Part shown: positions 8,552 to 15,113 of the stretch, one piece after another
How the letters are laid out: every line of letters starts with the position of its first letter
Position numbering within the stretch: the stretch's first letter is position 1
NCBI GenBank assembly: GCA_016866775.1
Contig: VGLJ01000043.1
Span: 1 to 42,379 of the forward strand
Reading direction: 5' to 3'
DNA length: 42,379 bases
Source of the DNA: Candidatus Rokuibacteriota bacterium
GTDB lineage: Bacteria; Methylomirabilota; Methylomirabilia; Rokubacteriales; CSP1-6
Translations under genes and position numbers: made by a program
Notes under the pieces: model-generated
Seen by the model: the letters and a program-made list of their open reading frames with translations, nothing else
The model's database searches: none
Told to the model about the DNA's origin: nothing

Positions 8552-10024
8552 TCAGACCTTCGCGAGCTTCTCTTCGATGAGCGTGTTCACGATCGCCGGG
8601 TTCGCCTTGCCCTGCGTCGCCTTCATCACCTGGCCCACCAGCGACTTCGCGGCCGCGGTCTTGCCGGCCTTGAAGTCGGCGATGGCCTTCGGGTTGGCGG
8701 CGATGACCTGGTCGACGATCGCGGCGATCGCGCCGGTGTCCGCGACCTGCGTGAGGCCCTCGCGCTGCACGATCGTGCGCGCGTCTTCACGCGAGCGGAC
8801 CATCTTCTCGAAGACGTCCTTCGCGATCTTGCCGCTGATCGTGCCGTCGTCGATGAGCGCGATGAGCCCGGCGAGGTGCGCCGGCGGGACCGGCGACTCG
8901 GCGATCGCGCGCTCATCGTCGCCCGGGACCACGCGCAGGAGCTCCGACATGATCCAGTTGGCCACGGCCTTGGCGGACGCGGGCGACGCGGTGCTGCCAC
9001 CGGGCGCGAGCGCGCTCACCGCGGCCTCGTAGTAGCCGGCGAGCGCGCGGCTCTGCGTGAGGATGCCCGCGTCGTAGGCCGGCAGCCCGTACTGCGCGAC
9101 GAACCGCTGCTGTTGCGCGCGCGCGAGCTCCGGCAGCGCGGCGCGGATCCCGTCCACGAACGCGCCCTCGAGCTTCAGCGGAACGAGATCGGGCTCCGGG
9201 AAGTAGCGATAGTCGTGCGCGTACTCCTTGCTGCGCATCGACCGCGTGTAGCCCTTGTCGGCGTCGAACAGGCGCGTCTCCTGCACGATCTTCTCGCCGG
9301 CCTCGAGCGCCTGCGCCTGCCGCTTCACCTCGAACTCGAGCGCGCGCTGCGCGTTGCGGAACGAGTTCAGGTTCTTGATCTCGACCTTCGTGCCGAGCTC
9401 CGTCGCGCCCGGGCGCCGCAGCGAGATGTTCGCGTCGCACCGCATCGAGCCTTCTTCCATGTTGCCGTCGCAGACACCGAGGTACATGAGCACGGAGCGG
9501 AACGCGCGGAGATACGCGGCGGCCTCCTCGGGCGACCGGAGCTCGGGCTTCGACACCGTCTCCATGAGCGGCACGCCCGCGCGGTTGAAGTCGACGCGGC
9601 TCGACGGCGCGGTCTCGAGCGTCCCGTCGTGGATGAGCTTGCCGACGTCCTCCTCCATGTGCAGCCGCTGGATGCCGATGCGCTTCGTGCCGCCCTGGAC
9701 GTCGATCTCCAGCCAGCCGTCCTCCGCGAGCGGCTCCTCGTACTGGCTGATCTGGAAGTTCTTCGGCATGTCCGGGTAGTAGTAGTGCTTGCGCGCGAAG
9801 CGGCACGCGGTGTTGATCCGGCAGTTGAACGCGAGCGCGGTGCGGACGCCGAACTCGATCGCGCGCCGGTTGATCACCGGCAGCGTGCCGGGCATCCCGA
9901 GGCAGATCGGGCACGTCTGCGTGTTGGGGCTCGCGCCGAACGTCGTCGGGCAGCCGCAGAACATCTTCGTGCGCGTGGTGAGCTCGGCATGCACTTCCAG
10001 CCCTATGACGACTTCCCAGGTCAT
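8552..10024 (-). CDS. gatB: Aspartyl/glutamyl-tRNA amidotransferase subunit B
   Basis: GatB is the kinase/transamidase subunit of GatCAB, which converts misacylated Glu-tRNA(Gln) and/or Asp-tRNA(Asn) to the amidated forms. The 490-residue product starts [17 protein letters not shown]. It carries the zinc-type cysteine set [10 protein letters not shown] then [15 protein letters not shown], and later [18 protein letters not shown] and [12 protein letters not shown]. The C-terminal YqeY-like tail domain ends LIEEKLAKV. The start overlaps the gatA stop by four bases. Length and motifs are normal. Confidence 0.97.
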
Positions 10025-11478
10025 GCGAGCTCCGGGCGGCGCGTGCGCCAGGTCGTCGCCTGCTCGTACGCGTACGCGACACGCAGGATCGTCGCCTCGT
10101 CGAAGGCGCGGCCCACGAGATGGAGGCCGATCGGCAGGCCCGACGTCGAGAACCCGCACGGCACCGAGATCCCGGGGTTGCCCGAGAGGTTCGCCGGGAC
10201 GGTGAAGACGTCGTTCAGGTACATCGCGAGCGGGTCTTCCTTCTCGCCGTGCTTGAACGCGACGCCGGGCGTGGTCGGGCCCACGATCACGTCCACGTGT
10301 TCGAACGCCGCGTCGAAGTCGCGGCGGATCAGCGTGCGCACCTTCTGCGCCTTGCCGTAGTACGCGTCGTAGTACCCGGAGGAGAGCGCGTACGTGCCGA
10401 GCATGATCCGGCGCTTGACCTCCGCCCCGAAGCCGGCCGCGCGCGTGCGCGACTCCATGTCGATGAGATCCTTGCCCAGCGCCCGGAGCCCGTACTTCAC
10501 GCCGTCGTAGCGCGCGAGGTTCGACGACGCCTCGGCGGGCGCGATGATGTAGTACGCGGCGAGGCCGTGGTCCGCCGTCGGCAACGTCACCGCCTGCGTG
10601 GTCGCGCCCAGGCCTTTCAGGACGTCGATCGCCGCGGTGACCGCGCGCTGCACGTCGGGATCCATGCCCGCGGTGTCGTACTCGAGCACGCCGACCCGCA
10701 GGCCTCGCATGCCTTCGCCCAGCGACGCCGCGTAGTCCGGCACCGGCACGTCCACCGACGTCGCGTCGGCGGGATCGACGCCCGCGATGGCGCGAAGGAC
10801 GAGGGCGGCGTCGCGCACGTCCTTGGCGAACGGGCCGATCTGGTCGAGCGACGACGCGAACGCCACGAGCCCGTAGCGCGACACGCGGCCGTACGTCGGC
10901 TTCATGCCGACGATGCCGCAGAACGCGCCGGGCTGACGGATCGAGCCGCCGGTGTCCGTGCCGAGGCTGATCGCGGCGAGATCGCCCGCCACCGCGGCCG
11001 CGGGCCCGCCCGACGAGCCGCCGGGCACGCGCGCGAGGTCCCACGGGTTCGCGGTCAATTGAAAGGCCGAGTGCTCCGTGGAAGATCCCATGGCGAACTC
11101 GTCCATGTTCGACTTGCCGAGCGGCACCACGCCGGCCGCCGCGAGGCGCGTCACCACGGTGGCGTCGAACGGCGGCACCCAGCTCTCGAGGATCCGTGAG
11201 CCACACGTGGTCTTCACGCCCCGCGTGGACAGCACGTCCTTGTAGCTGATCGGGACGCCGTCCAGCGGCCCGAGCGGCTTGCCGGCGCGGTAGCGCGCGT
11301 CGGACGCGGCGGCGGCCGCGCGCGCGCGGCCGTCGGTGACCGTGAGGTACGCGCGCACCTTGCCGTCGAGCTTCGCGATCCGCCCGAGGTACGCCTCGGT
11401 GACGGCGCTCGGCGTCGCGGCGCCGCTGCGGAAGGCGTCGGTCAGCTCGTGCGCGGTCAGACGCGTCGGGTCCGTCAC
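10021..11478 (-). CDS. gatA: Aspartyl/glutamyl-tRNA amidotransferase subunit A
   Basis: GatA is the amidase that releases ammonia from glutamine for GatB. The 485-residue protein shows the amidase signature: the lysine in [12 protein letters not shown], the glycine/serine-rich [20 protein letters not shown], and the catalytic serine in [16 protein letters not shown], followed by [17 protein letters not shown]. It starts immediately after the gatC stop codon with no gap and runs into gatB, giving the order gatC-gatA-gatB. Confidence 0.97.
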
Positions 11479-11766
11479 TCAGTCCTCGATGATCCGCGGC
11501 ACCCGGAAGAACTCGCCCGCGCGATCGGGGGCGTTCGCGAGCGCTTCGTCGCGGGGCAGACACGGACCCGGCGCGTCGTCGCGCATCACGTTCACCATCG
11601 GGACCGCGTGCGACGTCGGCTCCACGTCGTCGGTGGCAAGGGCGTTGAGCTTCTCGATGTACGCGAGGATGCCGTTGAGCTGCTCGCGCATCTTCTCGAT
11701 CTCGGCGGCGCTCAGCGCGAGCCGGGCGAGCCGCGCGACGTGCTCCACGTCTTTCCGCTCAATCAT
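11479..11766 (-). CDS. gatC: Aspartyl/glutamyl-tRNA amidotransferase subunit C
   Basis: GatC is a small helical subunit that wraps GatA and stabilises the GatCAB complex. This 95-residue protein has the family opening DVEHVARLARLALSAAE, followed by the conserved helix ending in LNGILAYIEKLNALAT, and VEPTSHAVPMVNVMRDDAPG with a typical C-terminal FFRVPRIIED. Its start lies inside the last eight bases of the helicase gene, so translation may be coupled to the helicase. Confidence 0.95.
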   Translation of the reverse strand: MIERKDVEHVARLARLALSAAEIEKMREQLNGILAYIEKLNALATDDVEPTSHAVPMVNVMRDDAPGPCLPRDEALANAPDRAGEFFRVPRIIED

Positions 11767-14700
11767 GGCCGTCGATCTCTTCCAGGTGAGCGTACTGCAG
11801 CGACAGGCGCTTCCGCCCGACGCTCGCGAAGCGCACGGTGACCATGACGTCCTCGCCCTCGCGCTCCACGCCGACGACGAGACCCTCGCCGAAACGGGCG
11901 TGGCGGACCTTCGCGCCGACCTTCATCGGCAAGTCGTCGTCGCCGGGCATGGGAAGGGGCGGACCCGGCGAGCCGTACGACGCGCGCGGCTCCTGGAACG
12001 TCGGCGGCTCACGCCGCGCGTTCACCATCACCAGGTGCTCTTCCGGCATCTCGCGCAGGAAGCGCGAGGGTTCGCCGACACCGTAGCCGTGCAGGCGACG
12101 ATGCAGCGCCCACGAGAGCGCGAGCTTCTCCTTCGCGCGCGTGAGACCCACGTAGCAGAGCCGGCGCTCCTCCTCGACTTCCTCCGGGGAGTCGAGCGAG
12201 CGCATGTGCGGGAAGACGCCCTCCTCCAGTCCCGTGAGGAAGACGAACGGGAACTCGAGCCCCTTGGCCGAGTGCAGGGTCATCATCGTCACCCCGCGGG
12301 ACTCTTCGGGCATCTCGTCGACGTCGGCGACGAGCGCGACGCCGTCGAGGAAGGTCTCGAGCGAGGGATCCGGCTGCGTGCGCTCGTGGTCCTCGGCGGC
12401 GGCGATGAGCTCCTCGAGGTTCTCGAGGCGCGCCTGCGCCTCGGGCGAGCGTTCCTGCTCGAGCGCGGCGCGGGAGCCCGTCGTGTCGAGCACGAGGTCG
12501 ATGAAGGCGGGGAGCTGGGCGCCGGCGCGCTCGCTGCGGAGGCGCGCGATCAGCGCCGCGAAGTCTTCGAGCGCGCGGCGCTGCTTGCCGCTGACGTCCA
12601 CCGGCGGCGTCGCGGCCAGATCCAGCAGCGCGCGGCGCTCACGAACGGCGACGTCGTCGAGCCGCGTGAGCGACGTCTTGCCGATGCCGCGGGCGGGCGC
12701 GCCGATGGCGCGGCGGAAGGCCACGTCGTCGTCGGGGTTCACGATGAGCCGCAGGTACGCGAGGACGTCCTTGATCTCCTTGCGCTCGTAGAACCGGACG
12801 CTGCCGACGATGACGTACGGGATGCCGGCCCGTCGCAGCGCGTCCTCGAGCACGCGCGACTGCGCGTTGGTCCGGTAGAACACCGCGACGTCGCTGAACG
12901 CCGTGGCCTCGCCGCGCGCCTGCACGATCGACTGCGCGACCCAGTTCGATTCCTCGTGCTCGTCCCACGCGCGATAGACGCGGACCGCCTCACCCTCCGC
13001 GTTCTGCGTCCAGAGCGTCTTCTCCTTCCGCAGACGGTTGTGCCCGATCACGCCGGCCGCGAGCGCGAGGATGCGCCGGGTCGATCGATAGTTCTCCTCG
13101 AGGCGGATCACGCGCGTGCCGGGATAGTCGTTCTCGAAGTCGAGGATGTTGCCGAGATCCGCGCCGCGGAACTTGTAGATCGAGTTGTGCACGACAATGC
13201 CACCGGCGACGTAATTGCGCAGTTCCCCGACGGTCAAGTCATAGACGAAGCCGGTGTATCCCTCGACATTAACGGACGCGACGCGCGCCTCTTCGATGTG
13301 CCCGTCCCGGAGAATCGGAAGAACCATCCCTGGACGGATGTGACTCGCCGGCATGAACTGGAACGCGCGGCGCGGCGTCAGGCGCGCGCGACGCACGAGA
13401 TCAAGCTCGCCAATCTGCGCGAGACTGCGGACGAAGTCGAGACCCTTGTCGTAATCTTGTCGCGCCGTCTCGATCCGCCAGTCAGCCCGCCTTCCCGCAC
13501 GCGTCGGCGCAACGAGTGAAAGCGCCTCGCGCAATCGCTGGTCTGAGCTTACGAGCTGAATCTTGTGTTCCGCGCGTCCATAGCTTCGTGGATATCCGAA
13601 CATCGTGAAGTAAACGAGCTTGCGCGAATTCCGTCCGAGATTGATCGCCTGGGCGCGGTGATGTGGGTACTCGGGAAACAGGAGGAGGTCGTTCATCAAG
13701 AGTCGTGCCCGGGCGCGCGTATCGATATCCCGATAGAGGCGATCGATGGCTTCCTGAGTCACAGCCATCCGACGACCGCACCCATGGAACACAAGGGTCG
13801 GTAGACCGTATTGCGCGGCGAGGTAAGACTCCCAGTACCGCGCCTCCGCATAGGTGTCGCACGCCTTCAAGACCCAGCAGCCATCGGCGTGCTCACCGTT
13901 CGTCCGCATCTGTAGTCCAGAAGCGCGCTTGCCCCGATCGTCACCCGCACGAACGCCCCGCGTGACGCCGATCCGATATCCGAGGGCCGAGTGATACATC
14001 AAGTAGACAAGATGACGGTTCGCGTCGGGCTCGATGCGCGCGAACATCATGTGATTCGGCGTTGCCGTGAGACGCCGCCCGTCTTCTGTCGTGATCTCGA
14101 TCACGGAGCCGTCGTAGTGGCTCTTCTTGACCGCTTCGACGAGGGCTTCTCGGCTCTTGCCCCACCCGCTACCAGCGACGATCCGGTCCCCAGCGCGTAT
14201 GCGTTCGATAGGCTTGAGCCCGTCGACGGTCTCGACGGTTGTTCCTTCGACCAGGCACTGGTCGGGATCCCCGACCACGCAGACGTTGCGATGCTTCGAC
14301 GTCAGCAGGCGGATCATCCGGTACTGCACGCGGTTCGTGTCCTGGTACTCGTCGACGAGCACGTGGTGCCAGAGCCCGCGATACCAGTCGAGCACGCTCG
14401 GCGCTTCCTGGAAGAGCCGCACGACGAGCAGCAGCAGGTCGTCGAAGTCGACGGCGCCCGTGGCGCGCAGCCGCTCCTCGTAGCGCTTGTAGATGAGCGC
14501 GGCCTCCGCCTCGCTCGGGCCGCGCGCGTTCCTCGCCATCTCGTCGACCGACATCATCCGGTTCTTCGCCGAGCTGATCCGGTGGACGATCGCGGAGGCC
14601 GTGAGATTGCGCTCGTCGACGCCGCGCTCGCGGAGGCACTCCTTCACCAGCGAGAGGCGATCGTCCTCGTCGTAGATCGTGAAGTGCGGCTTGTAGCCGA

Positions 14701-15019
14701 GGTGGTGCACGTGCTGGCGCAGGATGCGCACGCACGCGGAGTGGAACGTCGCGACCAGTGGCGCCCGCAGACCGACGGGCGCGAGCAGCGCGTCGACCCG
14801 GCGCGCCATCTCGCCCGCCGCCTTGTTGGTGAACGTCACGGCGAGCACGTGGCGATCGTCGATGCCGCGCACGCCGATGAGGTGCGCGATCCGATGGGCG
14901 ATCACGCGCGTCTTTCCGCTCCCGGCGCCCGCGAGGACGAGGAGCGGCCCATCTCCGTGGGTGACGGCGTCGCGCTGCGGCGGATTCAGGCGGGTGAGGA
15001 GGACTTCCGGGTCCAGCAC
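11759..15019 (-). CDS. pcrA: UvrD/PcrA-family DNA helicase containing an intein
   Basis: This superfamily 1A helicase unwinds DNA in repair and removes obstacles from DNA. From a GTG at 15019 (GGAGGG lies 12 bases upstream) the open frame gives 1086 residues, 358 of them an intein, leaving a 728-residue helicase of normal size. The frame is open to an ATG at 15082, but the family begins near LDPEVLLTRLNPPQRDAV, favouring the GTG. Motifs: Q motif and Walker A LAGAGSGKTRV, motif Ia AVTFTNKAAGEM, motif II VLVDEYQDTN, motif III GDPDQ/SIYKFRGAD (split by the intein), motif IV VIRLEENYRSTRRIL, motif V MTLHSAKGLEFPFVF and motif VI CYVGLTRAKEKL. The C-terminal tail has the PcrA-type KVGAKVRHARFGEGLV segment that can contact RNA polymerase. 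The last eight bases overlap gatC. Confidence 0.95.
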   Translation of the reverse strand: MLDPEVLLTRLNPPQRDAVTHGDGPLLVLAGAGSGKTRVIAHRIAHLIGVRGIDDRHVLAVTFTNKAAGEMARRVDALLAPVGLRAPLVATFHSACVRILRQHVHHLGYKPHFTIYDEDDRLSLVKECLRERGVDERNLTASAIVHRISSAKNRMMSVDEMARNARGPSEAEAALIYKRYEERLRATGAVDFDDLLLLVVRLFQEAPSVLDWYRGLWHHVLVDEYQDTNRVQYRMIRLLTSKHRNVCVVGDPDQCLVEGTTVETVDGLKPIERIRAGDRIVAGSGWGKSREALVEAVKKSHYDGSVIEITTEDGRRLTATPNHMMFARIEPDANRHLVYLMYHSALGYRIGVTRGVRAGDDRGKRASGLQMRTNGEHADGCWVLKACDTYAEARYWESYLAAQYGLPTLVFHGCGRRMAVTQEAIDRLYRDIDTRARARLLMNDLLLFPEYPHHRAQAINLGRNSRKLVYFTMFGYPRSYGRAEHKIQLVSSDQRLREALSLVAPTRAGRRADWRIETARQDYDKGLDFVRSLAQIGELDLVRRARLTPRRAFQFMPASHIRPGMVLPILRDGHIEEARVASVNVEGYTGFVYDLTVGELRNYVAGGIVVHNSIYKFRGADLGNILDFENDYPGTRVIRLEENYRSTRRILALAAGVIGHNRLRKEKTLWTQNAEGEAVRVYRAWDEHEESNWVAQSIVQARGEATAFSDVAVFYRTNAQSRVLEDALRRAGIPYVIVGSVRFYERKEIKDVLAYLRLIVNPDDDVAFRRAIGAPARGIGKTSLTRLDDVAVRERRALLDLAATPPVDVSGKQRRALEDFAALIARLRSERAGAQLPAFIDLVLDTTGSRAALEQERSPEAQARLENLEELIAAAEDHERTQPDPSLETFLDGVALVADVDEMPEESRGVTMMTLHSAKGLEFPFVFLTGLEEGVFPHMRSLDSPEEVEEERRLCYVGLTRAKEKLALSWALHRRLHGYGVGEPSRFLREMPEEHLVMVNARREPPTFQEPRASYGSPGPPLPMPGDDDLPMKVGAKVRHARFGEGLVVGVEREGEDVMVTVRFASVGRKRLSLQYAHLEEIDGHD
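13184..14257 (-). other. Intein within the helicase (358 residues, motif III insertion)
   Basis: The insertion splits helicase motif III between GDPDQ and SIYKFRGAD. Its first residue is Cys (CLVEGTTVETVDGLKPIERI, block A). Block B is RLTATPNHMMF with the expected Thr and His. The C-terminal blocks read VYDLTVGELRNYVAGGIVVH then Asn, followed by Ser as the +1 extein residue. All residues needed for the standard splicing chemistry (Cys1, block B TxxH, penultimate His, terminal Asn, +1 Ser) are present. The central 230 residues have no clear LAGLIDADG motif. A segment reading DTYAEARYWESYLAAQYGLP recalls insert domains seen in other UvrD/PcrA inteins. The base composition is visibly less GC-rich than the flanking helicase, suggesting transfer. 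Confidence 0.93.
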
Positions 15020-15113
15020 TCGTCGATTGTACCCTCCCCACGCCTGCCCGACGATGCGCCCCGTGACCGATGCGTGCGCCACGGGGGCATCGTAGACCAG
15101 ACCGGCGTGCGCG

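Follow-up and report, generated by a model that had tools for sequence, protein, structure and literature searches.

A class-1 intein with a predicted GIY-YIG-like nuclease domain in the PcrA/UvrD helicase of a Rokubacterium

The window analysed here, a stretch of 42,379 nucleotides from a Candidatus Rokuibacteriota bacterium, encodes a PcrA/UvrD-type helicase whose motif III is interrupted by a class-1 intein that we predict to be able to splice. From sequence comparisons and a structure model, we consider it very likely that this intein is mobile and that the homing endonuclease nested in it belongs to the GIY-YIG superfamily, and not to the LAGLIDADG or HNH types. Intein nucleases are mainly of the LAGLIDADG type, and rarely of the HNH type. 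The features of the locus are as follows, with residues numbered from the first residue of the intein unless stated otherwise.

11759-15082, minus strand: precursor gene, an SF1A helicase of the PcrA/UvrD type that contains the intein; 1107 aa counted from the first GTG, with a second possible GTG start at precursor residue 22
14258-15082, minus strand: N-extein, 275 codons, ending CVVGDPDQ (motif III)
13184-14257, minus strand: intein, 358 codons, from Cys1 to His357-Asn358, followed by the +1 Ser
14033-14257, minus strand: N-terminal splicing half, residues 1-75, blocks A and B, TPNH with His69
13793-14014, minus strand: predicted GIY-YIG-like nuclease domain, residues 82-155 (alignments, hhalign, AlphaFold model, BFVD fold search)
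14003-14005, minus strand: Tyr85 codon (YLM), aligned to the GIY Tyr
13967-13975, minus strand: Arg95-Ile96-Gly97 (RIG), aligned to YIG with Arg for Tyr
13904-13906, minus strand: Arg118 codon, aligned to the conserved Arg of GIY-YIG helix 1
13829-13831, minus strand: Glu143 codon, aligned to the metal-binding Glu of GIY-YIG helix 2
13373-13780, minus strand: helices 168-177 and 180-190, then a second small domain (about 200-295), in long members only
13184-13366, minus strand: C-terminal splicing half, residues 298-358, ending VVHN
11759-13183, minus strand: C-extein, starting SIYKFRGA, stop codon included

The reading frame is open throughout its 1107 codons, and NCBIfam assigns the host protein to PcrA/UvrD with an E-value of 1.6e-239. 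Minus the intein, which makes up precursor residues 276-633, the helicase has 749 aa when counted from the first GTG and 728 aa should translation begin at the GTG of residue 22. The spliced length of 728 residues proposed in the sequence-only reading is thus consistent with this second start. Directly downstream and on the same strand (8552-11766) are apparent gatC, gatA and gatB genes, judged by eye from their translations.

The splicing set of the intein is complete (Cys1, the block B motif TPNH with His69, the penultimate His357, Asn358 and the +1 Ser), and the Pfam model Intein_splicing (PF14890; E 5e-14, 52.8 bits for a cut-off of 35.8) as well as the NCBIfam models intein_Nterm and intein_Cterm (TIGR01445 and TIGR01443) all exceed their cut-offs. 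When the whole AlphaFold model is searched against the PDB, both splicing halves align with solved intein structures, with the Hint fold. The insertion falls exactly between the Gln of GDPDQ and the Ser of SIYKFRGA, and 34 relatives carry an uninterrupted GDxxQ[SA][IV]Y at this same point. The sequence-only reading had described a 358-residue intein at this very junction of motif III, and we come to the same result on both counts. One outcome that it had named as telling against it was the finding of homologues that reveal the block as an ordinary part of the helicase; the splicing residues and the intein models speak against this, the empty sites in the 34 relatives rule it out, and we give it next to no probability. 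The lower GC content noted in that reading is confirmed as well (61.8% for the intein versus 69.5% and 70.1% for the exteins), and is found again at third codon positions (GC3 of 0.72 versus 0.93), a composition that fits a late arrival without proving it.

The endonuclease place of the intein is occupied by a module (residues 82-155) that is common to well over 100 inteins of phages, plasmids and bacteria, and that sits at the same place in nearly all the relatives collected, with the pattern xVYLMx(6-9)[YFW]R[IV]Gx[TS]...R...ExA(D/E)xxW[IV]L...A...E...YG[IL]P. These relatives were drawn from the same bacterial family, from GTDB contigs, from named phages and plasmids, and from IMG/VR contigs. 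A scan of viral contigs with a single sequence returned no relatives, and a search of the IMG/VR contigs with alignment queries returned more than 100. Part of the sample was retrieved with patterns taken from the module itself; a larger set, obtained through a pattern of the C-terminal splicing block, has the same conserved module residues. Conservation was assessed on 72 representatives, less than 80% identical to each other. Cys1, His69, Tyr85, Met87, Arg95, Gly97, Arg118, Glu143 and Asn358 are invariant in all 72. Mean pairwise identity is 0.38 in the module, versus 0.30 and 0.35 in the N-terminal and C-terminal splicing blocks, and dN is well below dS in the nuclease-like domain of Rokubacteria pairs. 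These values, together with the invariance of the predicted catalytic residues, go against the suggestion of the sequence-only reading that the domain may be decaying. Likewise, the segment DTYAEARYWESYLAAQYGLP, which had looked repeated, is in the alignment a single helix of the conserved domain and holds the predicted catalytic Glu143, which rules out an internal repeat. No free-standing copy of the domain was found in the phylum, where 23 of 23 matches are inside long reading frames, apparently intein precursors, so that there is no bridge sequence to a free-standing nuclease.

Tyr, Gly, Arg and Glu, in this order, are the signature of GIY-YIG nucleases. The module was compared by hhalign with a reference profile of 12 GIY-YIG domains from related genomes (YhbQ-type), giving a P-value of 3.6e-6 (probability 87.5%, score 33.2) in a register that aligns all four residues; the counterparts of the GIY Tyr, the YIG Gly, the helix-1 Arg and the helix-2 Glu are present in every one of the 72 members. 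As controls, 200 column-shuffled profiles reached at most a score of 19.2 against the GIY-YIG profile, and the best of 37 unrelated real profiles scored 11.7. When accepted GIY-YIG families are compared with one another in the same manner, the P-values are 2.7e-5, 2e-5 and 4e-3; by this measure, the module stands as close to GIY-YIG as accepted families do to each other. Its relation to the profiles of UvrC (P 3e-3) and MUG113/T5orf172 (P 8e-4) is weak. The YIG Tyr position is Arg95 throughout (72/72); T5orf172/MUG113 proteins have a Lys there, so members of the superfamily can do without this Tyr. ICP1 Gp88, of the T5orf172 type, is an active nuclease that depends on its Glu (PMC8263062).

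None of the Pfam, NCBIfam, PHROGs or PDB profiles significantly identified the domain as GIY-YIG, the best sub-threshold matches of single members being MUG113 (E 0.084) and GIY-YIG (E 0.27, below the Pfam cut-off). With the insert as a single sequence, the PDB and Pfam matched the splicing domain alone, and the domain profile had one PDB match at chance level (E 0.079). A Pfam match to Pertussis_S2S3 (E 0.005), below the cut-off and seen in one member only, was taken as chance. Missing the Pfam cut-off lowers the claim of GIY-YIG membership without excluding it, since this criterion depends on the library. We use the label GIY-YIG-like for residues 82-155, as a predicted nuclease domain and with good but not complete certainty.

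A structure prediction of the middle region had been proposed in the sequence-only reading, and the AlphaFold model of the intein, built with 57 sequences, is confident (pLDDT 93.8, pTM 0.91). Its nuclease-like part consists of strands 82-89 and 93-100, helix 114-121, strand 126-133 and helix 136-150, followed by helix 168-177, and this beta-beta-alpha-beta-alpha-alpha order is that of GIY-YIG. In the viral structure library BFVD, the top matches of the insert are the helicases of its own family and a methyltransferase, and among the weaker named matches are many GIY-YIG or Seg-type endonucleases, with weak E-values. The unrecognised endonuclease domain suspected in the sequence-only reading finds support in the hhalign P-value, the conserved residues and the model, its activity being a prediction.

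What follows the nuclease-like domain depends on the member. The short ones (271-304 residues, such as that of SPO1) have no second domain, and the long ones (333-413 residues), found in Rokubacteria, Anaerolineales, Justusliebigvirus and phages like it, carry some 100 extra residues after the nuclease, arranged as beta-beta-alpha-beta-alpha-beta. Residues from about 160 to 295 are probably the DNA-recognition part. The second domain scores 16.0 against the LAGLIDADG_3 profile, for a maximum of 13.8 in 150 shuffles and an hhalign probability of 1%. We take this weak score, together with the PDB fold matches given below, as a hint, and as a lead only, that it could be a LAGLIDADG-like saddle devoid of active site.

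This hint is also an argument for reading the whole insert as a diverged LAGLIDADG endonuclease, one that has lost its motifs in the way of decayed inteins and contains nothing of the GIY-YIG type. Such a reading would be in line with the Foldseek search of the insert against the PDB, in which LAGLIDADG meganucleases head the best 50 matches listed, at probabilities of up to 0.92 and E 0.05, and no GIY-YIG entry is named among them, and with the fact that ordinary LAGLIDADG inteins are common in the phylum. Domain 82-155, however, scores only 14.9 (P 0.047) against LAGLIDADG and 33.2 against GIY-YIG, the six invariant residues would not be expected in a decaying domain, and the DGD/LAGLIDADG motif is absent from the aligned members, in keeping with the sequence-only reading, which had seen none in the middle region. 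We thus judge a diverged LAGLIDADG endonuclease to be very improbable. The window intein is not among the LAGLIDADG_3 matches listed for its genome. Four other such matches there (G000:C18, C32, C57 and C89), in long reading frames, are probably ordinary inteins, and LAGLIDADG_3 matches occur in 65 of 94 genomes from the phylum.

The other alternative accepts the GIY-YIG-like fold and holds that the domain is no longer a nuclease, being instead a structural or regulatory insert in an intein that either descends vertically or has a role in the conditional splicing of PcrA. The replacement of the YIG Tyr by Arg and the lack of any known activity would agree with this, as would the correlation of intein and extein divergence in Rokubacteria (r 0.76) and the partial agreement of some trees; since the two divergences track each other there, vertical descent does also occur. 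Against it stand, besides the invariant active-site set and the Lys of the T5orf172 proteins with their active member, several signs of movement. In the bacterial family, the pcrA site is occupied in 11 genes and uninterrupted in 34 (45 genes), and on the pcrA tree this patchy occupancy needs 9 changes, 8 of which are forced by well-supported branches, about the same as with shuffled labels. Genomes G078 and G079 share an intein with 97.6% DNA identity (dS 0.058), far more similar than their exteins, both at 89% (dS 0.29-0.33), which is what a recent copying of the intein from one lineage to another would produce. In phages, the alleles with and without the intein differ precisely by the intein itself: 825 bp between flanks that are 95.9% identical for SPO1 (with it) and Goe9 (without it), and 1038 bp between flanks that are 97.9% identical for PaulScherrer (with it) and EmilieFrey (without it). 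With its patchy occupancy, intact empty sites and exact phage allele pairs, the family is mobile-looking, and we regard a domain that has lost its nuclease function as unlikely.

A mobile intein with a GIY-YIG-type nuclease, the reading that we prefer, would go through the following cycle. The precursor helicase would be translated and the Hint domain would splice itself out by means of Cys1, His69, His357, Asn358 and the +1 Ser, leaving an active PcrA. The freed intein would then cut an intein-less pcrA at or near the GDxxQ/SIY codons (the slash marks the insertion point), with Tyr85, Arg95, Arg118, Glu143 and a metal ion as the proposed active site and with the helices and second domain (about 160-295) conferring DNA specificity. 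Repair templated by the occupied allele would finally copy the intein in.

The extein junctions of the 72 representatives fall in genes of two unrelated types, at motif III of UvrD or in DPPY-type DNA methyltransferases, and the sequence that follows the junction is in either case often [SC][ILVFW]Y.[FW][RK]. Similar codons at this place may allow the nuclease to jump between helicase and methyltransferase genes. In a broader picture, which we put forward as a doubtful though not negligible possibility, this class of inteins in phage and bacterial helicases and methyltransferases would move by means of its GIY-YIG nuclease and might jump between unrelated genes, the long members combining a GIY-YIG head with a LAGLIDADG-derived DNA-binding saddle without an active site of its own.

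Several observations concern the diversity of the family. Within helicase motif III, at least three insertion points are used, namely GDxxQ/SIY, GD[SP]/CQ and Q[QA][IL]Y/SWRGA (L100, L101, L109, L110, L026, L027). A second group of Rokubacteria inteins, of 361 aa, follows VADDDQ in a different UvrD paralogue, where it occupies the corresponding site (loci L007-L014, in G008, G016, G023, G027, G029, G030, G031 and G037). This group has a shorter nuclease domain (RIGVTNDLxxRL), which seems to come nearest to the textbook GIY-YIG pattern, and G016 has both groups. In Klebsiella phage KP13-16 (L024, 740-4336), a helicase reading frame annotated as a hypothetical protein apparently contains two inteins, of which the first interrupts the Walker A motif (GTGKAQP...HNTST) and the second, of the GIY-YIG type, is in motif III. 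In four phage loci (L085, L089, L092 and L094), the C-terminal junction is GN and not HN, and this penultimate Gly may slow Asn cyclisation.

With LAGLIDADG class-1 inteins such as PI-SceI, PI-PfuI and the VMA inteins, the window intein shares the Hint domain, the usual nuclease place between the splicing halves and the in-frame location in a conserved motif of an important protein, but its nuclease is GIY-YIG-like and lacks the acidic LAGLIDADG motif. The GIY-YIG homing endonucleases I-TevI and Seg have the same fold order, the same Tyr/Gly/Arg/Glu signature and a nuclease head with a separate recognition part; they are, however, encoded in group I introns or by free-standing phage genes, whereas the window domain is nested in an intein and has an Arg for the YIG Tyr. 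T5orf172/MUG113 proteins (e.g., ICP1 Gp88/Odn) resemble it in having a basic residue at this position (KIG there, RIG here) and the conserved Arg and Glu, but profile similarity is weak and flanks and context differ. The AceL NrdHF split class-3 intein is also associated with a GIY-YIG homing endonuclease, which is a separate ORF between the split halves (PMC7891396), while the nuclease-like domain described here is part of an unsplit class-1 intein. The UvrD helicase inteins of SPO1 (gp34.33), CampHawk and the E. coli phage PaulScherrer belong to the same family, with the same motif III site and invariant residues; they are deposited as 'intein' with no endonuclease named in the annotation tables consulted, and the SPO1-type ones lack the second domain.

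A survey of the GIY-YIG superfamily in 2006 found none in inteins (PMC1564403), and reviews count GIY-YIG among the homing endonucleases, but the type that they describe as usual for inteins is LAGLIDADG (PMC7765530, PMC3943268). Our full-text literature search, which left most subscription journals and the InBase compilation outside so that an earlier notice is possible, returned no report of a GIY-YIG, MUG113 or T5orf172 domain fused in an intein. An intein with a fused GIY-YIG-type nuclease is apparently an unreported variety. If the prediction holds true, it would be a further case in which a homing nuclease and protein splicing have come together independently, and would explain many phage inteins that are now annotated without an endonuclease, and the near-identical laboratory phage pairs with and without the intein would offer a direct test ground for homing.
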